A DNA stretch of 30,685 nucleotides from IMG/VR virus record IMGVR_UViG_3300030329_002408, positions 1 through 30,685 of that record; one strand, written 5' to 3'. This DNA is from a virus. Below the pieces are notes generated by a model that worked only from the letters and a program-made list of their open reading frames with translations, was not told the origin of the DNA and searched no databases. Below, piece by piece: positions 611 to 16,930 of this stretch. A program made the position numbers and the translations under genes. The stretch's first letter is position 1. Every line of letters begins with the position of its first letter.

Positions 611-839
611 TTGTTATCTTTCGGGCAAACTGCTCACCCATTTTCTTGGCTTTGCGGTATCGGGGAAGCTCTTTTAATATGGCATCCTCTGCGAACTGCT
701 CCGCCCACGATTGTGGATCATCCAATATTTCTTCTATTTCGCCCGTCAGCTCTACGTCAAACTTCAGAAGTTCTCTGAGCGACTTGGCGTGCTTTTTCAA
801 ATATTGAGAGTTTCTCGTTTCTTTGCTTGTTTGAGGCAA
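603..839 (-). CDS. Small protein (78 aa) overlapping the portal gene end
   Basis: An unrecognised charged, probably helical protein. The start codon is TTG at 839; a GCGGAG Shine-Dalgarno lies 7 bases upstream on the minus strand, which supports this start despite an 83-base overlap with the portal reading frame. The middle contains 'DDPQSWAEQFAEDAILKE' and the end is Lys/Arg-rich. The next gene begins inside its stop region (8-base overlap). It lies between portal and a gpG-like gene, so a head assembly or head-tail accessory role is plausible but not shown. The real start could be further in, since the N-terminal 28 residues fall wholly in the overlap. Confidence 0.6.
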   Translation of the reverse strand: MPQTSKETRNSQYLKKHAKSLRELLKFDVELTGEIEEILDDPQSWAEQFAEDAILKELPRYRKAKKMGEQFARKITSD

Positions 840-2055
840 TGCTTAACTCCGCTTGTTCTAATGTTAAATCGTTATTATATTCCATTAATAGTCCAACCTC
901 GTCTATTAAATTCATCTCAAGACGATGTTTGTCCCATAAAATCTGATCCTGTACTGTTTTTGGATATTCTGGCTCTTTGAAATCAAGTCCAAGATCGGCT
1001 GGCAGACTTACTCCGAAACTTGAGGCAATTTGACGTTCCACACGATAAAAATCCTCCTCATACATCTTCCAAAGAGCCAAATCATCCTGATAATCCTCTG
1101 TCCTTTCCAAATCCTTAATCATTAAAGAAATTCCTGATGGCACTTCGCCACCTTGTTCACTCCATTGTACCCATAGGTGATTGTTTTGAGCAACAAGCTC
1201 GACGAGGAATTTAATATTTTCTATTACACCTGTAACATTTCCTTGTGGGGCTACTATCTCATAAGTAGAGCCTTCAGGCAGTTCCAAAGTAACATCTGAT
1301 CCCGTTCTTTGGTTATTACCCATCTCAGCACCTGTCATTACTGGTTGCCCGAACATTTGGAATCGAAGTCCAAGTTGCATTTCAGTCATTCCAATGTTTA
1401 TATGCTCATTGGCATTAATTATGTCATTCGCACCCTCAACATAAAAAGAATCTGTCTGATTTTCACGATGGGTGAACACAAATGGTAAAACTCCGTATGT
1501 ATGAGGTATTTCATTTAATACATTACCATCCTCATCCATTTGAACATATTTTTCAGCATCCCAATAAGCATATTGTAACTTCTCTACCTGAGAAGAATCT
1601 TCTACTGGCTGTAATATTGGATAACTAATTGCTGAAGGAACGAAGGGGTCATCATGAAAGAATACGTGAAAAAAGTAAATAGGTCGGTAGTCAAAATAAG
1701 GAGTGTCCCCTTCGCTCCATACAACTCTTGTGGCGATTGTTCCTACAAGTCTTGTCATTCGCTCTATGTGTTTCATCCTTGCGGATTTCATTTTTGTTAA
1801 AATGTCATATTGATCTCCTGCGTTGCGATTCGCACCGATTGTATAGATTCTTGACATCTTGTTTATGAATTTTCGTGTAATGTTTGATTCCACTATGGGT
1901 ATCTCATTAAATACGGCAGAAGAAAACATCCTTGATATGTAATGAGAAGTGTTATTGCCATTGTAATAGTCAAGTAGCTTCTCAACATGGTTTTCTCTTT
2001 TTTTCGCATTGTGTAGTTTTAATTGTCTAATTGATTCTTGTAATAAGTCCATCAT
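757..2055 (-). CDS. Portal protein
   Basis: This 432-residue protein directly follows the terminase gene and has the size and composition of a phage portal: the dodecameric ring at the capsid vertex through which DNA enters and leaves. The N-terminal part ('DYYNGNNTSHYISRMF', then 'VESNITRKFINKMSRIYT') looks like portal N-terminal regions, where a short helix precedes a conserved 'N-----V---V----G' type segment. The C-terminal third is helical and charged. The ATG at 2055 overlaps the terminase stop by 4 bases (ATGA); a second in-frame ATG follows immediately. The SD is weak, so coupling to terminase translation is likely. The call rests on position plus partial motif. Confidence 0.8.
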   Translation of the reverse strand: MMDLLQESIRQLKLHNAKKRENHVEKLLDYYNGNNTSHYISRMFSSAVFNEIPIVESNITRKFINKMSRIYTIGANRNAGDQYDILTKMKSARMKHIERMTRLVGTIATRVVWSEGDTPYFDYRPIYFFHVFFHDDPFVPSAISYPILQPVEDSSQVEKLQYAYWDAEKYVQMDEDGNVLNEIPHTYGVLPFVFTHRENQTDSFYVEGANDIINANEHINIGMTEMQLGLRFQMFGQPVMTGAEMGNNQRTGSDVTLELPEGSTYEIVAPQGNVTGVIENIKFLVELVAQNNHLWVQWSEQGGEVPSGISLMIKDLERTEDYQDDLALWKMYEEDFYRVERQIASSFGVSLPADLGLDFKEPEYPKTVQDQILWDKHRLEMNLIDEVGLLMEYNNDLTLEQAELSIASNKQRNEKLSIFEKARQVAQRTSEV

Positions 2056-3359
2056 CTTTTAATTGCCCTCGCCTCCCTATTTTTTATTGGGAATTTGTTT
2101 ATGAAAAAATATCGTATCATGTCACACCCGTGATCGTGGTATCCATCTTTTAAACTCTCTGGTTTTAAATCCCCTGTAGATTCAGGGTATCTAAGACTTT
2201 CCAAGTCCTCTTGTATTCCTGCGCAATGCTCATCAATGTGAAATCTTCTGCTACCATCCGCACTTTCAATGAATGATCGCACATGACTTTCACCTGACGG
2301 CTTGTTCCTTGATGTTTTATCTCTTACTGATTTTACTATTATTCCGTTTCTTCTAAATATCTCAATGTCACCAAGCCCTGACTGCCCTTGCGCTTGCATC
2401 CCTGCTGGATCACCGAAATATTCCATTACATTATATTTTTTTGCCTTAATCATCTCAATTAAAGTATCTGTCTTGATATTCTCCTCGTGGATAATCTCAT
2501 CTATCATGTTTACGTGGGATATGCCACCGACCTTATATACTTGAAACCATCCCACAGCAGGCATCCTATACCCAAAGTCAATAGCACAGTAAGTCGGAAA
2601 ATTAGGGCTATAAGGATAATGACCAACATCAAGATTCCTATCAAAAGGATATACCCTGCCTGCGAAACTTGTGAATTTAGCACCATACTCTTGATCGAAT
2701 ACCTCCTTTGACATGTTTCGTTTACGCTCAATGATTACTGGATTCTTCTCTCCATCAGGATAAGAATAACCATTCTCCCAAGCAGGAGCAGTATGCGATT
2801 CCCACATTGGGTCTTTCTTTCCAAGTAGGTACTTATCATAAAGCCAGTTAAATCCCTGTGGGGTACTTATGAAAATCGCATTTCCATTTCTACGACCAAC
2901 GGCAGGCGAGATATACATGTCCCATATCTCCTGTTTCATCTTCGCAGCCTCATCTAAAATTACAAGATCATACTCATCTCCTACAAGCGAATCAGGATTA
3001 TCCGCAGATAGTCCTTCTATCGTGCTTCCCCATTTGAACCTAACATACTGATCCTTCTCTGAACATTTAACAACGTCGTTCTTATTTGGAAGTACCATCG
3101 TTCTCCATATTTCATCAAATAATAGTTTGGATTTTTTGTAAGAAAGCCCCACAAGAGCCACCTTTTTATTTGGTAGCGATGCAACAAAGGATGCTTCTTT
3201 CGCAGAAGCAAATGTTTTCCCATAACCACGCCCGCAAACAATAACGAAAAATCGGGATGACTTCTTTTTTGGGAAATGTAGCAGAGATTGACCCCTGTGA
3301 GGCTCATAGCCCATGAACTTAAACCAGTCCTTTTTGTATGTCGTGAGATCGTTCTTCAA
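2052..3359 (-). CDS. terL: Terminase large subunit (ATPase and nuclease)
   Basis: This is the DNA-packaging motor. The ATPase domain has Walker A 'GRGYGKT' at residues 43-49, Walker B 'LVILDE' with D136 and E137, and the coupling motif 'STPQG' at 165-169. The C-terminal RNase H-like nuclease domain begins at 'AIDFGY' (D260) and has further acidic residues in 'FGDPAG' and near the end in 'HDHGCD'. The length of 435 residues is normal. The start is TTG at 3359: a stop lies two codons upstream and the first in-frame ATG is residue 16, inside a segment ('W--F-GYEPH-GQ') usual for terminase N-termini. No clear SD precedes it. No small terminase was found in the window. Confidence 0.95.
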   Translation of the reverse strand: MKNDLTTYKKDWFKFMGYEPHRGQSLLHFPKKKSSRFFVIVCGRGYGKTFASAKEASFVASLPNKKVALVGLSYKKSKLLFDEIWRTMVLPNKNDVVKCSEKDQYVRFKWGSTIEGLSADNPDSLVGDEYDLVILDEAAKMKQEIWDMYISPAVGRRNGNAIFISTPQGFNWLYDKYLLGKKDPMWESHTAPAWENGYSYPDGEKNPVIIERKRNMSKEVFDQEYGAKFTSFAGRVYPFDRNLDVGHYPYSPNFPTYCAIDFGYRMPAVGWFQVYKVGGISHVNMIDEIIHEENIKTDTLIEMIKAKKYNVMEYFGDPAGMQAQGQSGLGDIEIFRRNGIIVKSVRDKTSRNKPSGESHVRSFIESADGSRRFHIDEHCAGIQEDLESLRYPESTGDLKPESLKDGYHDHGCDMIRYFFINKFPIKNREARAIKR

Positions 3360-3488: not shown

Positions 3489-4010
3489 ATGTCCGAAGAA
3501 ATGACACAAGATAGCGTGCAAGAAAGTCAAGAAATTAAGACGGAGAGCAGACCTGAAAATGCCGATTCTGGTTTGTTGCAGGAAGTGATGGCTAAAAAAG
3601 CTACAATCAAGGAATTGCAAACTAAATTAGCTGAATTTGAATCTGCGAATGAAAAAAGGCGACAAAAGCAATTATCAGAAGATGGTAAAAAAGATGAACT
3701 TATTTCAGAATTAAATACGAAAGTTGAGAAACTTGAAGGCGAATATACTCGTCTTTCCAAGTACGAGGATGATGAAAAAACAGGGCTTATTGCATCTTTG
3801 GCATCTAATGAGGAAGAAGCAGAACAACTTTCAAAAGAAAGTCTTTCTACGCTTCGTTTGCTTAAAAGCAAGATCGCTACCAAAACTCCTGAAGCTCCTC
3901 CTGCAAGAGGGTCTGTTGGAAATCAACCTCCTCCTGATCTTGTAAAAATGGATCAAAAGGAAAGGAAGAAAAATTGGGGCGATATTTTAAGAAGTTATAG
4001 AAAAAATTAA
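3489..4010 (+). CDS. Capsid scaffolding protein
   Basis: This 173-residue highly charged protein lies immediately before the major capsid gene, the usual place for a scaffold. The middle (residues about 30-125) is Lys/Glu-rich with heptad-like leucines and should form a coiled coil. The N-terminus is acidic. The C-terminus is basic ('KERKKNWGDILRSYRKN'), like the capsid-binding helix of known scaffolds. A Pro-rich linker (about 134-150) precedes that end. Scaffolds direct procapsid assembly and are absent from the mature virion. An SD lies 6 bases before the ATG. The sequence family is not recognisable, but composition and position agree. Confidence 0.8.
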   Translation: MSEEMTQDSVQESQEIKTESRPENADSGLLQEVMAKKATIKELQTKLAEFESANEKRRQKQLSEDGKKDELISELNTKVEKLEGEYTRLSKYEDDEKTGLIASLASNEEEAEQLSKESLSTLRLLKSKIATKTPEAPPARGSVGNQPPPDLVKMDQKERKKNWGDILRSYRKN

Positions 4011-4026
4011 CATGGAGAAATAAAAA

Positions 4027-5010
4027 ATGGAATTTTTAACAATGGATTTAGGTGTCCTTATTGAGATTATCAGTCTTATTTGTGTTGGTGGTGCTATTAC
4101 AGGATTTACAGATCATTCAGGTTCAAACGCATCTAATACAACAGGTACTGCAAATCTTGATGAAGTAATCCCTGAATTATGGGCTGACATGATATGGGGA
4201 TATTTTGAAAGAAGGCTTGTTTTAAGAAATCTTTTTGATGATTATTCACCTCTTGTTAAAGGTAAGGGTGATAAGATAAATATGCCTGAAATGCCAGAAT
4301 CAACAGGTCTTGGTGATAAAAGTGCAGGTTCTTCAGTAACTTATGAAGATGAAGATTTGGCAACAGAATTGCTTACTATCAACAAACATAAATATGTTGC
4401 AAAGATGTTTGAAGATATTGCAGTAATTCAGGCAAATGAAGAACTTTTTTCTAAATATGCTCAAGCAATGGGCTATCAATTAGCAAAGCAAATTGAAGCT
4501 GATATTGTTACTGCATTAGAAGGCTATGGAACAACACAGTCAATAACTACTGATAATGTTATAACGCTTGGTGAGATTGAAACAGCAATGAATACATTAT
4601 CTGCTTCTGATGTTCCTATTGATGAGTGTTTTATAATTGCTAATTATAAAATCTACAACGATCTATTAACACAGGGTGTTGTTGAAGGAATAGCATCATC
4701 AACTTATCATACCACTAATGCAAACGCACTTGCTGGTATTAATTTTGGTGGTGCAACAATGAGCGGTAAAGTGCCAACAGTATTTGGTATGCCTGTTTAT
4801 AAATGCAATAGCGTTAAGGTTTCAACATCATCAGGTGACGAGCAAATGTTTATTGCTCATCCTACTGCACTTGCTATAGCAGTTCAGCAAGACATCAGGG
4901 TTCAATCTGAATATAGTGTTGATTTCTTGAGTACAAAGGTTGTAGCAGATACTATTTATGGTACTGCTGTTAGAAATACTACAGTAAGAGCTATTGAGTT
5001 CATATCATAA
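4027..5010 (+). CDS. Major capsid protein (HK97-fold type)
   Basis: This 327-residue protein follows the scaffold gene and has features of HK97-fold coat proteins: an early 'PELWADMIWGYFERRLVLRNLFDDYS' style segment (residues about 50-75), a spine-helix region with 'MGYQLAKQIEADIVTAL', and a late segment 'VFGMPVYKCNSV' followed by 'RAIEF' near the C-terminus. It builds the icosahedral shell. GGAGA sits 8 bases before the ATG. An oddity is that residues 8-26 are strongly hydrophobic, unusual for a coat protein; the next in-frame ATG is codon 6 and does not remove this run. The N-terminus may be buried, cleaved, or misread here. The family call is by pattern and position. Confidence 0.88.
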   Translation: MEFLTMDLGVLIEIISLICVGGAITGFTDHSGSNASNTTGTANLDEVIPELWADMIWGYFERRLVLRNLFDDYSPLVKGKGDKINMPEMPESTGLGDKSAGSSVTYEDEDLATELLTINKHKYVAKMFEDIAVIQANEELFSKYAQAMGYQLAKQIEADIVTALEGYGTTQSITTDNVITLGEIETAMNTLSASDVPIDECFIIANYKIYNDLLTQGVVEGIASSTYHTTNANALAGINFGGATMSGKVPTVFGMPVYKCNSVKVSTSSGDEQMFIAHPTALAIAVQQDIRVQSEYSVDFLSTKVVADTIYGTAVRNTTVRAIEFIS

Positions 5011-5282: not shown

Positions 5283-5621
5283 ATGGCTTCAAAGCATAAA
5301 CTGACAGTTCAGGAATCGCAAAACGCATCACTTGGTCAAGCAGGATCAATACTTGTTAAAGATGCAGATGTGGCAGTAACCGCACTTAATGGAGTGTTTG
5401 TAGCAATACAATTCTTAGAGGATACAATATTCAAGTCCTCTGGCGGTCTTGTTGCTGAAACAGAACAATTATATCTTGATGACACAGGGACATCTACTTC
5501 CGTGTCTGCTGCGAATGGAGATACGATAGATGGCATTACATTCCCGCAGGGGATGACTATTTACGGAAGATGGACAGCATTTACACTTGCCTCAGGCAAA
5601 GCCGTAGCATATATAGGTTAA
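5283..5621 (+). CDS. Putative head decoration or minor virion protein (112 aa)
   Basis: A protein of 112 residues, probably mostly beta strand, with small residues (Ala, Thr, Ser, Gly) and few Cys or Trp. It ends in a strand-like segment 'ITFPQGMTIYGRWTAF' followed by 'GKAVAYIG'. Position after the capsid genes and before the LamG giant suggests a capsid decoration protein or an anchor for that giant protein. I do not recognise a named family. An SD (AGGAAG) precedes the ATG, and its stop is one base before the next start. Confidence 0.65.
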   Translation: MASKHKLTVQESQNASLGQAGSILVKDADVAVTALNGVFVAIQFLEDTIFKSSGGLVAETEQLYLDDTGTSTSVSAANGDTIDGITFPQGMTIYGRWTAFTLASGKAVAYIG

Positions 5622-5622
5622 T

Positions 5623-8600
5623 ATGTTAGGATTAGGTGCTAACTTAATCAAATCAGCATATCGCAGAGGGTTAGCGTATGTTCGTGATGGCTTAAAACTC
5701 TATATGCCCTATCGTGGGGCAAATCATTCCGAAGTTAAATTCGTAGGCACAGATTCGGCTACATTTACAAGTGGAAATAGTGAATATTTTTCAGTAGCAG
5801 ACCAAAATGATTTAAGTTTTGGTGATGGAGATGATGATAGTCCATTTACATTCATGGCGTGGATTAAAACTGATGATGCAACTGATTTTCCTATAATATC
5901 AAAAGGGCAATACAATACAGGTTCTGCACACGGAGAATATAGATTTATACTGGGTGGAGATGATAAGTTATTTATGTATATATATGATGATGATGCTAAT
6001 GCTTACGAAGTTGGATATTATAATACTGCAATGACAACTTATGAGGGAAAATGGGTTCACCTTGCAGCAACTTATGATGGTCGTGGTGGAAGTGCTGCGA
6101 GAGCAGGTATTCAAATTTATATAGATGGTGTTGCTGTAACAATGACTACTACAGGTGGTGGTACATACGATTCTATGGTTAATGGTTCAGGAAATTTTCA
6201 TATTGGTAGGGATGAAACAGAAAATAAATATGCAGATGGTCAAATGAAAAATGTTGCAATGTGGACAAGGGAATTAACTGCTACTGAAATCCAAAATGTA
6301 ATGTATAAAACACATGATGAATTATCAGGAAGATTGACATCTAATTTAATCCATTGGTGGTCATTAGAAATTAATGGAGATGATAGTGCAGGAAATACAA
6401 CATTAACAAATAATAATACAGTTACATTTTCAACAACTATATATGGTGGTGATACTCCAGTAATCCCAAGAGCAATCGACAATGCACCAACAGTTCAAGC
6501 AGATGGAATAGGTAGTGGTAGCATGGTCTTTAATAGCACAGACTATATTTATTTTGGAAGCAGTTATCAATCATATTGGCAAGGTTCATTTTCTATGAGT
6601 ATTTGGGTTAAGCCTGATGATGGCAGACCTGCTGCAATAGACCATATTTTAGGAACAAATAATGGCGATGATTCAGATACTGTTATATTATATATAAATA
6701 CGGATGGAACATTAAATTTTCTTTATCAATCAAATAATCAATCTGTAACTGCAACATCAACAAGTGCGGTATTTAGTGATGGTCAAGAAGAATGGACACA
6801 TATTGCAGTAGTAGCAAATTCAGGTGGGAATATTTTATTATATGCTGATGGTGTATTAGTGGAAACAGAAGATGCAAGTACACCAACTTTTGGTAATTGG
6901 TCAAATGCTAATCCTCTATATGTAGGTGCATCAAATAATGGTGGTGACCCAAATGCTGCAACAAATCATTTTTCAGGAAAATTGGCACAGTTCTGCGTTT
7001 GGAATAAATCAATGACCCAAGCCCAAGTTATAAATATAATGGAAAAAACGTATGATGAAATGAACGATAATGATAAATCAGATTTAGTATTGCAATTACC
7101 ATTAGAGGTAAATCACAATGCTAATGTTGGAAGTGGTGCTTCAAATTCAGGTAGTGCTGCAGATACATCTGATTTTCCACTTAAAAAAGGTTCACCTCCT
7201 GACTTTGGCACTTTATATAGTGGTAGAGCATTAGAATTTGATGGGGTGGGGGATTATATAGATTGTGGTGACACTTCTTTTCGATTTGGAACTGGAGATT
7301 TTACATTATCAGGTTGGTTTCAAACATCTACTGCGGGAACAGAAAAGTATATTATTAGCAAAGGGACATCAGGGGAAGGTGGTTTGCGATATGCTTTATA
7401 TATAAATTCTGCAAACCATATTGTTGCAGAATTAGATGACAATACTGAAGGAACAGGTCTTACGACTGCAACAGGCTCGACAACAGTAACGGATGGTATT
7501 TGGCATTATGTCGTTGCTTCTTATGATAGGGATGGAAATTTAATTGTATATTTAGATGGTGCTGTTGAAGTAAGTGCAGGGATAAGTGGATCAGATGGAA
7601 CATTAGATGGTGCAAAAAATTTCCATATTGGTATTCTGTCAAATGATAGTTCATCACATCCATTTAGTGGGAAAATAGCCAATATCCAAGTTTGGAATAG
7701 TGCTTTAACAGAAGCAGAAGTCCAATATTCTTACACACATCCTGAAAAATTCGCATACAATACATCAGGTTCATCACTAACAGCATCCAATCTTGTGGCT
7801 TGGTATCCAATGATTGAGGGTGAGGATAGCACAGTACGTATTCCTCTTCGTAGTCCTCAAATGTATATTACGGATGGTAGTGAAAAGGGGCTTGGTGATG
7901 ATTTAATAGGAACTTTTGATTTTACATCAGCAGGGGAAGATCCTGATTGGGCTTTTACTGGAAGTTCAGCAGTAGATGCAGATACATTTTCAACAAATGC
8001 AAGTACGACAGGTGGTGCAAGGAAAGATTTTGGAACAATAGGAAAAGTATATAAAATGAGAATCGCAGGAACAACTGCTTGTACTTCGGTTAGGGTAGTA
8101 GGAACTGATACGAGTACAGTTTATACTTCAGGTCTTGGAACTGGAAGTTTTGATTCTACATTTTATTTTACTCACGATAGTGCAGGGTTTAGAATACAGG
8201 GAATCAATGGATCAGGAGGTGCATTAGAAACTACTATTACAACATTAACGATGCAAGAAGTAAAAATGGGTAATCATGGTGCTACTACGTTTTATGGTGA
8301 TGAATTAACTACTACTGCCTCTCCTGCTTCTATTACTGAAACTGGTCAAAATACTGAAGGTACTACTATATCGATGTGGACAGATGCTTCTCACGCAACA
8401 ACATCAAGCGTAACATCTCCAAGCCCTCATAATGGTAGCAATATGATAAAGATGATTACAGCAGCATCAGGAGGTGCTGCAAATTTAAGAAAATCTACTC
8501 ACGCTGCAATATCTGTAGTTGCAGGAAGAACATATTATTTTAGTGGATATTCTAAAGCAGATTCTTCAGATGGCGACCTTCACGGATTTGGTATTTATGA

Positions 8601-10200
8601 TGTTCAAAATGGGTCTGATTTATATACTAATACTATTGCAAGTAGCACTACTGCTTGGACACAATCTACTACTACAATAACTATTCCATCAGGATGTACT
8701 TCTGTTCAGATAAGGTTACAAGGTTCGGCTGAAGGAAGTAAAATTGGATATTATGATAGCATAGTATTTAAAGAAGTAGGAATAGCAGAAGGATGGTCAT
8801 CAGTAGATAGTGAGCCACTAATTCCACAGACAGCATTAATGGGATTAAGCAAGAAACACGCATTTGATGGTGTTAATGACTATGTGGGCATTGCAGATAA
8901 TTCCGCATTTGACATAACTAACAATTTTACTATATCTTGTTGGGCAATGAATTATGCAAGTGGAATAACTTCATATAATGAAGCATTGGCAAGTAAATAC
9001 AAGACAGCAGGGGGTGTGGATGAAAGGTCTTGGCTTTTCTTTTTAGATACTGATGAAAAATTAGTATTAAACACGTCTGATGATGGACAAAGTGGAGTAA
9101 TGACTCATACAAGTGATGCTGCCATCTCAACAATTAACCGCTTAAATCATTATGTTGCCACATTTGCAGGAGGAACAGTTAAATTTTATGTGAATGGTGC
9201 AGAAATAGCAAATACGAAAAGTGGTGAAACACAAACTGCAATAGCATCTGATGATGCAGACATTGCTATTGGAGCAATAAGTGAAGGAGGTGGGTATTAT
9301 TGGCATGGAATCATAGATGAGGTTGCAATATGGGATACAGCAGTATTAAGTCTTGCAGAAATACAAGCCATATTTAATGATGGCGTACCACTTGATGTAT
9401 CTTCTAATTCAGGAGATTATACGTCATCAGGAGATTTAGTTGGATATTGGAGAAATAACAATTTAACGACAGCAGGAACTTGGGATGACTTATCAGATAC
9501 TAATGTAAATGGAACAATGACAGGTTTTGGTGCAAGTGCTTATGCCCTACTCCCACAAGGAACAACAGCAGGAAAAGACATATTAGGATTTCCACTTACA
9601 CATGTAAATAATGGGTGGTTGAATCTTAATGGTGCAGGGTATGTAAATGCAGGAGATAATGATTTATTCACATTCATAAATGGTGGCTTTTCTCTTGAAT
9701 GTTGGTTTAAAATGGATGCTGTACCATCTGATGTAGCATTTTTAATAGGTAAGGCAAATCAAAGAAATGCAAGTAATGCTGATGATACGGAATATGGTTT
9801 ATTCTTGGATAATAATAAAATATTATACTTTCGACTTCTTGATGATAGTGCGTCAGCACATATAGGTGCATATTTTAATACTGCATTGAATCTAAATCAA
9901 TGGTATCACGTTGTTTGCACCCATACAGCAGGAGGAACTACGAGTGCTACTTGCAAAATATATTTAGGTGAAACTGCAACGCCTACTCCGACAGAATTGA
10001 AAACTGATGTAGATAGTGAAACTGGAACGTATGTAGCAATGGAAAATGCAACAGATAATATTCCTCTTGTAATAGGAGCAACATCTAATGGGGCAAAACC
10101 ATTTAATGGTTCTATTGATGAAGTTAGGATTTATGATAGAGAATTATCAGCAGCAGAAATAACAAAAAATTACAATCACGGAAAAAGCAAACATAGTTAG
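5623..10200 (+). CDS. Giant virion protein with five LamG/concanavalin-like domains (1525 aa)
   Basis: Five jelly-roll domains of the LamG_3/concanavalin A type can be read, at about residues 35-230, 297-481, 536-710, 1077-1257 and 1331-1516. Each shows the family pattern: a near-N-terminal 'F-G--DY----' strand, a 'F-(L/M)--W-' strand, 'W-H-(V/A)' before the 'YIDG' or 'YVNG' turn, a 'F-IG' strand, and a closing 'G-I--V-(I/V)W' strand. The last ends in 'FNGSIDEVRIYDRELS'. Residues about 718-1075 hold two other beta-rich segments; the second resembles carbohydrate-binding jelly rolls ('AGRTYYFSGYSKAD'). There is no signal peptide, as expected for a virion protein. It lies next to the capsid genes, so it could be a capsid fibre or decoration adhesin rather than a tail fibre. 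The likely role is binding of surface glycans. Confidence 0.88.
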   Translation: MLGLGANLIKSAYRRGLAYVRDGLKLYMPYRGANHSEVKFVGTDSATFTSGNSEYFSVADQNDLSFGDGDDDSPFTFMAWIKTDDATDFPIISKGQYNTGSAHGEYRFILGGDDKLFMYIYDDDANAYEVGYYNTAMTTYEGKWVHLAATYDGRGGSAARAGIQIYIDGVAVTMTTTGGGTYDSMVNGSGNFHIGRDETENKYADGQMKNVAMWTRELTATEIQNVMYKTHDELSGRLTSNLIHWWSLEINGDDSAGNTTLTNNNTVTFSTTIYGGDTPVIPRAIDNAPTVQADGIGSGSMVFNSTDYIYFGSSYQSYWQGSFSMSIWVKPDDGRPAAIDHILGTNNGDDSDTVILYINTDGTLNFLYQSNNQSVTATSTSAVFSDGQEEWTHIAVVANSGGNILLYADGVLVETEDASTPTFGNWSNANPLYVGASNNGGDPNAATNHFSGKLAQFCVWNKSMTQAQVINIMEKTYDEMNDNDKSDLVLQLPLEVNHNANVGSGASNSGSAADTSDFPLKKGSPPDFGTLYSGRALEFDGVGDYIDCGDTSFRFGTGDFTLSGWFQTSTAGTEKYIISKGTSGEGGLRYALYINSANHIVAELDDNTEGTGLTTATGSTTVTDGIWHYVVASYDRDGNLIVYLDGAVEVSAGISGSDGTLDGAKNFHIGILSNDSSSHPFSGKIANIQVWNSALTEAEVQYSYTHPEKFAYNTSGSSLTASNLVAWYPMIEGEDSTVRIPLRSPQMYITDGSEKGLGDDLIGTFDFTSAGEDPDWAFTGSSAVDADTFSTNASTTGGARKDFGTIGKVYKMRIAGTTACTSVRVVGTDTSTVYTSGLGTGSFDSTFYFTHDSAGFRIQGINGSGGALETTITTLTMQEVKMGNHGATTFYGDELTTTASPASITETGQNTEGTTISMWTDASHATTSSVTSPSPHNGSNMIKMITAASGGAANLRKSTHAAISVVAGRTYYFSGYSKADSSDGDLHGFGIYDVQNGSDLYTNTIASSTTAWTQSTTTITIPSGCTSVQIRLQGSAEGSKIGYYDSIVFKEVGIAEGWSSVDSEPLIPQTALMGLSKKHAFDGVNDYVGIADNSAFDITNNFTISCWAMNYASGITSYNEALASKYKTAGGVDERSWLFFLDTDEKLVLNTSDDGQSGVMTHTSDAAISTINRLNHYVATFAGGTVKFYVNGAEIANTKSGETQTAIASDDADIAIGAISEGGGYYWHGIIDEVAIWDTAVLSLAEIQAIFNDGVPLDVSSNSGDYTSSGDLVGYWRNNNLTTAGTWDDLSDTNVNGTMTGFGASAYALLPQGTTAGKDILGFPLTHVNNGWLNLNGAGYVNAGDNDLFTFINGGFSLECWFKMDAVPSDVAFLIGKANQRNASNADDTEYGLFLDNNKILYFRLLDDSASAHIGAYFNTALNLNQWYHVVCTHTAGGTTSATCKIYLGETATPTPTELKTDVDSETGTYVAMENATDNIPLVIGATSNGAKPFNGSIDEVRIYDRELSAAEITKNYNHGKSKHS

Positions 10201-10208
10201 GGAAATAA

Positions 10209-10571
10209 ATGGCACATTATGAATTATATATTTGTTTAAAAAAAGATACTTACGAATCCAAAGTGCCTGATGCACTTAAAAGCAAATTGCAATGGGATGA
10301 GTATGAATATGGTGACGATGGAGAGGTTACTAAAACAACAACAATCCATCCAACTTGGAAAGAGGCTACATTCAAGGGTTTTCTTGGAAGCCCAAGAGTA
10401 AGTCTTGATGGGAGTTTAATCATCGTAAAAGGCGAATTTAGCCTATTAAAAGGCGAACTAACATCAATGATTGCACTTGGTGATGGAATGGATTACCCAA
10501 ACAATTCAATTTTAACCAAATCGGAAGCACAAACATTAGCAAATGGGGAGTTATTTACAGCAAATGATTGA
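10209..10571 (+). CDS. Hypothetical protein (120 aa) between the LamG protein and the lysozyme
   Basis: I do not recognise this protein. It is a soluble, mixed alpha/beta protein with no membrane segment. A tandem-like motif is seen at 'IVKGEFSLLKGELTSM'. The SD is weak (AGGGAAAT before the ATG) and its start lies 8 bases after the LamG stop. Its last 8 bases overlap the preferred start of the lysozyme. It could be a chaperone or partner for the LamG protein, as small genes after fibre genes often are. This is inference from position only. Confidence 0.6.
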   Translation: MAHYELYICLKKDTYESKVPDALKSKLQWDEYEYGDDGEVTKTTTIHPTWKEATFKGFLGSPRVSLDGSLIIVKGEFSLLKGELTSMIALGDGMDYPNNSILTKSEAQTLANGELFTAND

Positions 10572-10974
10572 TGGATTAATAGATAGATTGAAGATCAGCG
10601 AAGGTTTCCGTGATCGTGTATATAAATGCACGGAGGGTTTTGATACCATCGGATATGGGTTCGCCATTAAGGATTTGGTATTATCGGAAGAAATATCAGA
10701 GATGATTTTAAAAGAAAAAGTAGAAGCATTGATTGGTAGAATAGAAAGCAAATTTGACTGGTTTGTTGAGATGCCTCCTGAAGTTCAATCCGTAATAGTG
10801 GAGTGTTGCTATCAACTAGGTGTTTACGGATGGAGTTGTTTTAAAAAGACAATTCACCACATGAAAGAAAAAGAATTTAAACACGCTGCAGATGAGATGC
10901 TTGACTCAAGATGGGCAAAGCAAACACCTAATCGTGCAAATATGTTAGCACAGATAGTTAGGGAACACGGATGA
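10564..10974 (+). CDS. Endolysin, GH24 T4-type lysozyme
   Basis: A muramidase that cuts peptidoglycan for lysis. The catalytic pattern E-8 residues-(D/C)-5 residues-T is exact: E13 in 'ISEGF', C22 in 'YKCTEG', T28 in 'DTIGYGF'. Cys replaces the usual Asp20 of T4 lysozyme; this is a known natural variant in the family. The C-terminal 'SRWAKQTPNRA' matches the conserved 'S-W----P-RA' of T4-type lysozymes. There is no signal peptide or N-terminal membrane segment, so export needs a holin. I chose ATG 10564: it places the catalytic Glu near residue 11-13 as in T4, with GGGGAG upstream. An in-frame ATG at 10543 would add 7 residues but has no SD. Confidence 0.9.
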   Translation: MIDGLIDRLKISEGFRDRVYKCTEGFDTIGYGFAIKDLVLSEEISEMILKEKVEALIGRIESKFDWFVEMPPEVQSVIVECCYQLGVYGWSCFKKTIHHMKEKEFKHAADEMLDSRWAKQTPNRANMLAQIVREHG

Positions 10975-11884: not shown

Positions 11885-12162
11885 TAGGAAAACTCGTTGC
11901 ACCACTATTAAAACTATTACTTCCAAAGGTTACGGAAAAGGTGGCGGATCATCTTGCAAAGATATTCAAGATGGATCAGTTATTAAATTACATGGAGTTA
12001 CCTAACGAGGCTGATAAGAAAATAGAACAGTTGGAGGCAAAGATTCAAGTGCTACTTGAAGATACACATCCTCCTGCTGTGGACATTAAAGAGTTTGAGG
12101 AAATGAAAGAAACAATCAAGAAGATAAAGAAATTAAGGGTGTTTAAGTCCATTGGCAAATGA
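11881..12162 (+). CDS. Small helical protein (93 aa) ending the lysis cassette
   Basis: The N-terminus is a Leu- and Lys-rich amphipathic helix ('LVAPLLKLLLPKVTEKV') that could sit on the membrane surface. The rest is charged and probably coiled coil, ending in a basic 'IKKIKKLRVF'. There is no clear transmembrane segment and no recognised family. It starts inside the stop of the 47-residue gene and its end overlaps the next gene by 11 bases, so the whole run from the lysozyme onward is translationally linked. Confidence 0.6.
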   Translation: MIGKLVAPLLKLLLPKVTEKVADHLAKIFKMDQLLNYMELPNEADKKIEQLEAKIQVLLEDTHPPAVDIKEFEEMKETIKKIKKLRVFKSIGK

Positions 12163-13192
12163 TGTGAAATTACAAGAGGGGCATCCTGTCGATGAGAATC
12201 TCCGCCCAATCAAGGTTGGGGGTGAAACGACTGCACTCGAATTATCCAAAGATGATGTAAGGGTTAATAATCTCCATGTAAATGGAACAACATCAGGCGT
12301 ATCTGCATCAGATTCTACTAAACTTCCTCTCGCAGGTGGAACAATGACAGGCGACATCACAACAGATAGTAACATTGTATCAACTGATCTTACGATTGAT
12401 GATTCAGGTGATATTACTTTAGATGCAGATGGTGGTGAGGTTTATATAAAAGATGGCGGAAATACTGTTGCTGAATTTACTGATGCAGGTGGCAGACCAA
12501 CATTGAAATTATATGAAGATGCTTCAGGTGGAACTGATTATGGGTTTTTGCAGACAAGGGTAAGCGGATATACCATACTTGGTACTTTTGATGATGCAGG
12601 ATCAGATGCTGATCTTATAATTACAGCAGATGGTGATCTTCAGTTGGTGTCTGAAACTGGAAAGTTTAAAATGAAAGATTCAAATGGTGAATTTTCTGTT
12701 ACAGATAGTGCTTATGCAGGTATGATACTGGGATATAGATGTATTGGCGAAGATGTTGCCCCTGCAACATATACATTAACCACGTCAATGGTAACAATAC
12801 ATTCTAATGCGACTGTTAGATTTATTGCTCCACCATCAGGGAATGTAGAAATAAATTTTCAAGCACATTACTTTGGCGGAAATGGATCAACTGTAACTTT
12901 AGGAATTTCAGACAATGCGACATATAGTGCATTATCAGCACCATCAGCACAATATGAGAAAGTAAGTTTTGATGTTGCAAGATTTGATGATGCAATTTTA
13001 AATCAGAATTGGGTAATTACAGGGCTGACAGCAGGAGATACTTACAATTATTGGATAGGTGCAAAAACATCATCTACAGTAGGAACTCCAACTATTAAAT
13101 ATGGTGGAGATAGTGCAGGTGAAAATGTGCCTTTAATTATTAAAGTAACTGCACTTCCAGCAGCAGTTTCAGATTTTGCAGTTTATGGGTAG
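12152..13192 (+). CDS. Fibre-like virion protein (346 aa)
   Basis: The start is TTG at 12152. The first residues (ANDVKLQEGHPVDENLRPIK) form an N-terminal signature that I associate with structural proteins of uncultured marine phages; no earlier start keeps it, and the next option is GTG four codons on. A repetitive beta-rich region with the tail-fibre motif 'LPLAGGTMTGDI' at about residues 58-69 follows, then 'L-I-ADGDL-L' repeats typical of trimeric fibres. The C-terminal 150 residues look like a separate compact beta domain. The 'PLAGGTMTG' motif is well known in phage fibres, which supports a receptor-binding or fibre-stalk role. Confidence 0.75.
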   Translation: MANDVKLQEGHPVDENLRPIKVGGETTALELSKDDVRVNNLHVNGTTSGVSASDSTKLPLAGGTMTGDITTDSNIVSTDLTIDDSGDITLDADGGEVYIKDGGNTVAEFTDAGGRPTLKLYEDASGGTDYGFLQTRVSGYTILGTFDDAGSDADLIITADGDLQLVSETGKFKMKDSNGEFSVTDSAYAGMILGYRCIGEDVAPATYTLTTSMVTIHSNATVRFIAPPSGNVEINFQAHYFGGNGSTVTLGISDNATYSALSAPSAQYEKVSFDVARFDDAILNQNWVITGLTAGDTYNYWIGAKTSSTVGTPTIKYGGDSAGENVPLIIKVTALPAAVSDFAVYG

Positions 13193-13202
13193 AGGAGAAT
13201 AA

Positions 13203-14018
13203 ATGCCAAGTTTTACAGGAGATAAATTTAGTAATTTTTATAAGAGGCTATTCCAAGTAAGTCAGACCTCCAATACAGGAGCAGATGCAACCACAAGACA
13301 AGTGCAGACAGGTGGAGGGGAGGATACATCTCTATCCATAAGCGATGATGTATTGCAAGTGCAACCGCAAAACGATGATACGACAGGTGCAATGGTTGTT
13401 AAAAATAAGGGTGGCTCAAATATTCTTGCAGTAGATACGACAAACAGTAAGGTTTTAGGTGGAGCGACACAAACTGCATTAAATACCCAATATGCTTATT
13501 TCGGTGCAAACTTTGCTGACCAGTCAGCATTTACTGCCGACATCCATCACGCTATTCCATTTAATACAGGAATGACTACTGGGGTAGCAGGTACTGCTAT
13601 GGGGAGTTCTACATCATCAAGTTTTAATGATACAAATCCTGCAACTTCATTGACTCTAACTACAGGTGCTCACCATTTTGCAGCCTGTTATTGGCACGTA
13701 ATTGATAATATTACCATAGATGCAGTTTCATGGTGGCATGGAGCAGATACGGCAACTGGCGATTCAACTGCGGCACATTTAATGGGATATGATGTTGTGT
13801 CGGATAATTCTTCTAATAGTGGAAATTTATCAAATGGAACTGTATTGGCAGATGGAGCAGGTATATCAAATGCAGGACATGAACAAATATATTATCAAAA
13901 CATGACAGTTCAATCAGCAGACGTAGATGCAGGAAAAGTGATTTTATTCACATTCGCATCAGATACAGTAAATTCAGATTATACAATTAATGCAACAGTA
14001 AAATATCATATTAGATAG
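13203..14018 (+). CDS. Putative virion structural protein (271 aa)
   Basis: A beta-rich, Asp/Thr/Ser/Gly-rich protein with 'ISDDVLQVQPQNDDTTGAMV', then 'NILAVDTTNSKV', which resembles trimeric fibre or needle repeat segments. The last 170 residues look like a globular beta domain with several aromatic residues and an early 'DIHHAIPF'. It sits in a run with two other proteins of similar composition, with a strong SD (GAGGAGA). A fibre or decoration role is inferred from composition and place; no named family was recognised. Confidence 0.65.
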   Translation: MPSFTGDKFSNFYKRLFQVSQTSNTGADATTRQVQTGGGEDTSLSISDDVLQVQPQNDDTTGAMVVKNKGGSNILAVDTTNSKVLGGATQTALNTQYAYFGANFADQSAFTADIHHAIPFNTGMTTGVAGTAMGSSTSSSFNDTNPATSLTLTTGAHHFAACYWHVIDNITIDAVSWWHGADTATGDSTAAHLMGYDVVSDNSSNSGNLSNGTVLADGAGISNAGHEQIYYQNMTVQSADVDAGKVILFTFASDTVNSDYTINATVKYHIR

Positions 14019-16498: not shown

Positions 16499-16930
16499 AT
16501 GGCTGTAAATTTTACTAACAACTGGAAGAATATTATTGATAAATTAGAGTACACTATTCGTAATGAATTTAAGGGTGCTTTGCCAGTTTACAGAGGTAAT
16601 AAAGCTCCTGCGGGTACAACCTACCTACAACTGAATCCTGTTGGATCGGAGCTTTTGGAGTATAATGTAAACTCTGAAACACGGGAATTTACCATACAAA
16701 TTGTTTATTATTTTTTAGAGGCTAATGTGAAAGATAGTGCTTTAGATCACATTCTTCGCACAGTTTCACGAATAGAGGCTTTAATACATGACAATGTAAG
16801 CATGACACTTGCAGATAGCACCCAAGCGTTTAATTGTAGGATGCAATCAACAGAGTTAAATGCAGGAGATGATGACATGTATGTTGTTGAGTGGGAATAC
16901 AAATGTATGCACTTAGGTAACACAGATTAG
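16499..16930 (+). CDS. Putative tail terminator / neck protein (143 aa)
   Basis: A protein of 143 residues with an N-terminal helix, then a beta-rich core ('REFTIQIVYYF') and a helix with 'RIEALIHDN', ending in 'VVEWEYKCMH'. Length, alpha/beta order and position between the connector and tail tube genes fit tail terminator proteins, which cap the tail tube and join it to the neck. No sequence signature is strong enough for more. The SD is weak (AAGG). Confidence 0.6.
   Translation: MAVNFTNNWKNIIDKLEYTIRNEFKGALPVYRGNKAPAGTTYLQLNPVGSELLEYNVNSETREFTIQIVYYFLEANVKDSALDHILRTVSRIEALIHDNVSMTLADSTQAFNCRMQSTELNAGDDDMYVVEWEYKCMHLGNTD

Follow-up and report, generated by a model that had tools for sequence, protein, structure and literature searches.

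In the stretch of viral DNA analysed here (the window; 30,685 bases, IMG/VR record IMGVR_UViG_3300030329_002408), two adjacent genes at 5283-5621 and 5623-10200 probably encode a capsid head spike of the RcGTA build, in which a 112-residue β-protein would serve as the base and a 1525-residue multi-lectin protein as the fibre. A sequence-only reading had proposed a capsid-borne, glycan-binding adhesin from the place of the large gene. This is still the best reading of the protein, but on other grounds: a base-like gene lies upstream, the N-terminus carries an LGLG motif, RcGTA provides a precedent, and in relatives the small gene is replaced by a recognizable spike base. Adjacency to the capsid genes alone is weak evidence, because the fibre-like g346 also lies outside the tail-tip block and because in relatives a tail-terminator-like protein bears LamG arrays; position as sufficient evidence was therefore rejected. 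To our knowledge, detailed accounts of polysaccharide-binding head spikes are limited to very few particles, and no description of lectin-array head spikes was found among open papers.

The domain composition of the large protein was as read before. Pfam Laminin_G_3 matches it five times (whole-protein E 2.2e-107), and each of the five concanavalin-like domains alone reaches 78-86 bits, well above the curated cut-off of 27.6 bits. The domains differ strongly, with pairwise identities of 21-34%, yet all pairs lie far above shuffled sequence (z 6-15), which identifies them as divergent homologues; separate ligands for single domains are plausible. The two β-rich segments noticed between the third and fourth domains (residues 702-1081) correspond to two separate β-sandwich modules of the carbohydrate-binding CBM4/16/22 type. 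Module 1 is assigned by the predicted model alone, only module 2 passing Pfam CBM_4_9. The model of this region is of low confidence (mean pLDDT 48, ~50-75 inside the modules) and was thus used for module count and fold class alone; in Foldseek it matched a tandem CBM22 best in the PDB (E 2e-9), and CBM16 and CBM4 modules as well.

The gene order is scaffold-like protein, major capsid protein, 112-residue protein, LamG protein, 120-residue protein, lysozyme, and then further fibre-like and tail genes, with tape measure and tail tip at 18.8-25.6 kb (Table 1). The large gene thus does lie between capsid and lysis genes and not in the tail-tip block. The major capsid protein is the presumed attachment site of the spike. 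Terminase and presumed portal genes (757-3359, minus strand) face away from the scaffold and capsid genes on the opposite strand (3489-5010, plus strand), a layout kept in most terminase relatives. Between the lysis and neck genes, g346 and g271 (12152-14018) look like more fibre-type proteins and vary among relatives.

Table 1. Features of the proposed head-spike locus and its flanks (window coordinates)
Feature	Position	Strand	Remarks
Major capsid protein	4027..5010	+	PHROG major head protein phrog_267, E 9e-31
Small β-protein, 112 aa, proposed head-spike base	5283..5621	+	1 bp before 5623
Multi-lectin protein, 1525 aa, proposed spike fibre	5623..10200	+	ATG start; LamG-A + LamG-B fusion
N-terminal anchor MLGLGANLIKSAYRRGLA	5623..5676	+	conserved in 13 other contigs
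LamG domain 1	5779..6294	+	85.8 bits
Conserved joint with YGGDTPVIPRAIDNAPTVQAD	6424..6546	+	80-84% DNA identity to relatives
LamG domain 2	6535..7029	+	78.3 bits
Conserved joint KKGSPPDFGTLYSGRALEFDG	7147..7269	+	former LamG-B start, fusion point
LamG domain 3	7240..7725	+	83.9 bits
Carbohydrate-binding-type module 1 (CBM1)	7867..8292	+	predicted model and Foldseek; resembles RcapNL spike-fibre module
Carbohydrate-binding module 2 (CBM_4_9)	8356..8724	+	Pfam 26.5 bits, cut-off 25.9; also model
Conserved joint SEPLIPQTALMGLSK	8758..8886	+	
LamG domain 4	8866..9366	+	82.8 bits
Conserved joint LLPQGTTAGKDILGFPLTHVNNGWLNLNG	9517..9636	+	74-84% DNA identity to relatives
LamG domain 5	9631..10161	+	83.9 bits
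Conserved C-terminus DRELSAAEITKNYNHGKSKHS	10135..10197	+	
120-aa protein MAHYELYICL...	10209..10571	+	travels with LamG-B
Lysozyme	10543..10974	+	Pfam Phage_lysozyme, E 5e-9; lysis genes begin and insertion slot ends here

In RcGTA, a base pentamer on the capsid pentamers grips one fibre via its N-terminal IALGLGLGL peptide (PMC7296036), and the fibre binds capsule polysaccharide (PMC7296036, PMC10218006). As in the window, a small β base gene (Rcc01079/GhsA) is followed by a sugar-binding-type fibre (Rcc01080/GhsB) with a hydrophobic-glycine peptide at its N-terminus. The RcGTA fibre comprises 325 residues, however, whereas that of the window has 1525 and includes two CBM-type modules besides its five LamG domains; its LGLG motif is also shorter than the RcGTA peptide.

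Any likeness between the proposed base of the window and that of RcGTA would be structural only. The model of the 112-residue protein (pLDDT 74, built with 18 sequences) was aligned by VIA-align to 6tb9_A1 and 8cjz_h, named 'Head spike base Rcc01079' and 'Spike Base Protein' in the PDB, over 80/84 and 81/87 residues; the Z-scores of 5.4-5.5 are below the trust level of 8, in a range that may reflect merely a common β arrangement, so that the fold match alone is suggestive. Thiamine pyrophosphokinase domains outscore the spike bases in this comparison; among the PDB chains listed, the only phage matches were RcGTA and Carin-1 capsid chains, the two solved spike bases. Profile-profile comparison of the window-type base with known bases including Rcc01079 gave no significant sequence homology, and Pfam and PHROG no convincing family. 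Sequence searches of the PDB gave no match with the base profile and no useful ones with single bases; some of the single-base hits were local alignments with repeat proteins and lectins instead of spike bases. Foldseek with the base model returned weak, cupin-like matches only from the PDB, and uncharacterised phage proteins from a viral library.

The fibre protein begins with MLGLGANLI; its first residues (MLGLGANL) recur in ~20 other phage contigs, and an LGL[GS] start is found family-wide. The motif is present in 14 of 20 starts of the protein family termed LamG-A below and in 1 of ~1,275 other ORFs; the LamG-A starts of L117, L120 and L125 have no clear motif. In about 17 of the 20 relatives, a homologue of the small protein is located 0-4 bp upstream of LamG-A. 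In L110 and L117, this slot is taken by an RcGTA-like base that matches a known-spike-base profile (E 6e-4 and 1.7e-5, among 5,249 ORFs) and is followed by the same LamG-A family.

These elements could act together in the following manner. Copies of the 112-residue protein, probably five at a time, would assemble into small rings on the capsid vertices, and one 1525-residue fibre per ring would be plugged in by its N-terminal leucine/glycine peptide, with some eleven arms per particle. Both carbohydrate-binding modules and all five lectin domains would extend on flexible joints and bind host surface polysaccharide, weakly but in a multivalent manner, and the phage would be kept near the cell until the tail engages. 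What we infer here are the oligomeric state of the base, its attachment to vertices, the number of spikes, the ligand, the host and the role in adsorption. By analogy, host surface polysaccharide is the likelier ligand; mucus or particles, which had also been suggested, found no support.

Relatives of the fibre clarify its domain organization. A search of viral contigs with the whole protein yielded no match; relatives were found instead with the N-terminal and joint peptides, the first 50 residues being conserved in 13 contigs and the joints adding more, ~20 in total. The capsid proteins of these contigs are unlike that of the window. Their usual gene order is a ~100-residue β-protein, LamG-A (430-993 residues), LamG-B (800-1028 residues) and the MAHYEL protein. 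LamG-A typically has two LamG domains; LamG-B has three, with two CBM-type modules between its first and second. Judged from sequence, LamG-A and LamG-B, which are separate genes in most relatives, are joined in a single reading frame in the window protein. The fusion accounts for the five domains and the location of the β-rich segments, and argues that LamG-A and LamG-B act jointly.

The LamG gene is accessory: in terminase relatives the slot between capsid and lysozyme genes is mostly short and without LamG, and a LamG gene occurs in only 4 of 50 sampled contigs, many of which are fragments. L073 has a different LamG gene in this slot. In the closest capsid-protein relatives, L003:2580-2882, L004:3485-3787 and L005:1098-1400, a homologue of the small base-like protein is followed directly by lysozyme, with no adjacent LamG fibre. 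No confirmed relative of the N-terminus is encoded in any bacterial or archaeal genome of the scanned collection, and tblastn against cultured phages revealed no relative of LamG-A or of the base.

Three relatives of the window phage bear LamG arrays on a different protein. In G047, a LamG protein encoded between g321-like and tail-tube genes matches the window's g143 with its N-terminus (27% over 91 residues, E 8.5e-11); G043 and G044 share the synteny of G047, their tail-terminator-like fusion resting on synteny and visual similarity. The PHROG 'tail terminator' phrog_347 takes in such fusions. The arrays fused to a tail-terminator-like protein comprise LamG and CBM-type modules and lie between g321-like and tail-tube genes (L134:2481-5201, L135:1804-4692 and L136:2843-5404). 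In view of G043, G044 and G047, the main rival is a lectin array at the head-tail junction, as in the neck structures of 936 phages or the tail-terminator-like fusions. The neck passage structure of the lactococcal 936 phages resembles the window protein, for which we infer the location in the virion, in bearing CBMs away from the tail tip, and its carbohydrate-binding modules bind host cells (PMC6669499). It is anchored at the neck by an N-terminal BppU-like domain, however, whereas Pfam detects neither a neck nor a BppU domain in the 1525-residue protein. Moreover, the latter has no N-terminal tail-terminator domain but opens with the anchor and LamG domain 1; g143 is separate in the window (16499-16930) and without LamG; and the start motif and partner gene of the LamG protein are in keeping with a head spike. 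A neck-borne array is thus unlikely. The laminin G protein of HRTV-25, also a multi-LamG protein (~1,570 residues) in the head gene block, differs from that of the window in its N-terminus without LGLG, an adjacent BppU-type gene and an archaeal host.

The 120-residue protein is possibly a chaperone or a cap; it shares 62-74% identity with the product of the gene that follows LamG-B in L100, L117, L120 and L123. Chaperone genes follow fibre genes, and a small gene travelling behind a gene for adhesin domains could indicate a misplaced gene for a conventional side tail fibre or receptor-binding protein, accompanied by that of its chaperone. An unrelated small gene (78-82 residues) likewise stands behind the tail-terminator-like LamG fusions and the LamG gene of L073. 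The cassette, however, stays with head genes in contigs of unrelated capsid proteins, and the N-terminus of the fibre matches none of the tail modules in the contigs analysed, which leaves a tail fibre less probable still than a neck array. Adjacency to the lysis genes could also suit a non-virion lectin, freed at lysis to bind debris, polysaccharide or competing phage. This is very improbable: the N-terminus shows no evident signal peptide, the best-matching PHROG carries the label virion structural protein, and LamG arrays in relatives are joined to a structural protein.

The distribution of conservation along the fibre bears on how it may evolve. DNA similarity between the window gene and its relatives is found mostly at the joints; mean pairwise identity is 48-62% in the linkers, where the conserved blocks are centred, versus 28-29% in the lectin cores. 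Between L108 and L117, one LamG domain is 84% identical and the other four are 30-42%; between L104 and L123, one is 65% identical, versus 38%. Single, highly similar domains in otherwise divergent pairs suggest module exchange, and these sequence comparisons point to an exchange of some lectin cores between related phages with the joints kept; conserved joints would permit such swapping. Tentatively, and with slightly less than even confidence, we suggest that the base, LamG-A, LamG-B and the companion protein make up a head-spike cassette that moves across unrelated capsids and diversifies through recombination, the long joints serving as exchange sites for a swappable, capsid-mounted sugar-recognition repertoire. 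If the head-spike reading is correct, (i) head spikes with modular lectin arrays would occur in several unrelated phage groups; (ii) adsorption of such phages may begin at the capsid and not at the tail; (iii) the signature of a small base gene and an LGLG fibre start would make spikes findable in metagenomes; and (iv) conserved joints with exchanged cores would make the evolution of a receptor repertoire directly testable.

Similar gene pairs, with fibre starts of the LGLG type, occur in cultured phages. Rhodobacter phage RcapNL has a homologue of the RcGTA base (PMC8601537), which was confirmed by sequence; its base gene (gp29) overlaps a fibre gene (gp30) starting MGLGLGIGLGL. The module of gp30 is homologous to CBM1 of the window (34.5% identity over 110 residues, z 6.9), but unlike the window fibre gp30 is just 144 residues long and has this single module. 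In Verrucomicrobia phage P8625, an RcGTA-like base (gp23) is followed by a 584-residue fibre (gp24, MIGLGLDL) with a LamG domain; this fibre is shorter than that of the window, has other joints and adjoins tail genes, not the capsid gene. The P8625 genes (L141:5959-7961), which resemble an RcGTA-type spike base and LamG fibre, are annotated 'tail fiber' or hypothetical. In Flavobacterium phage immuto (L140:3989-5912), a gp23-like capsid gene is directly followed by an RcGTA-like spike base and a repeat protein starting MYIGLGISL.
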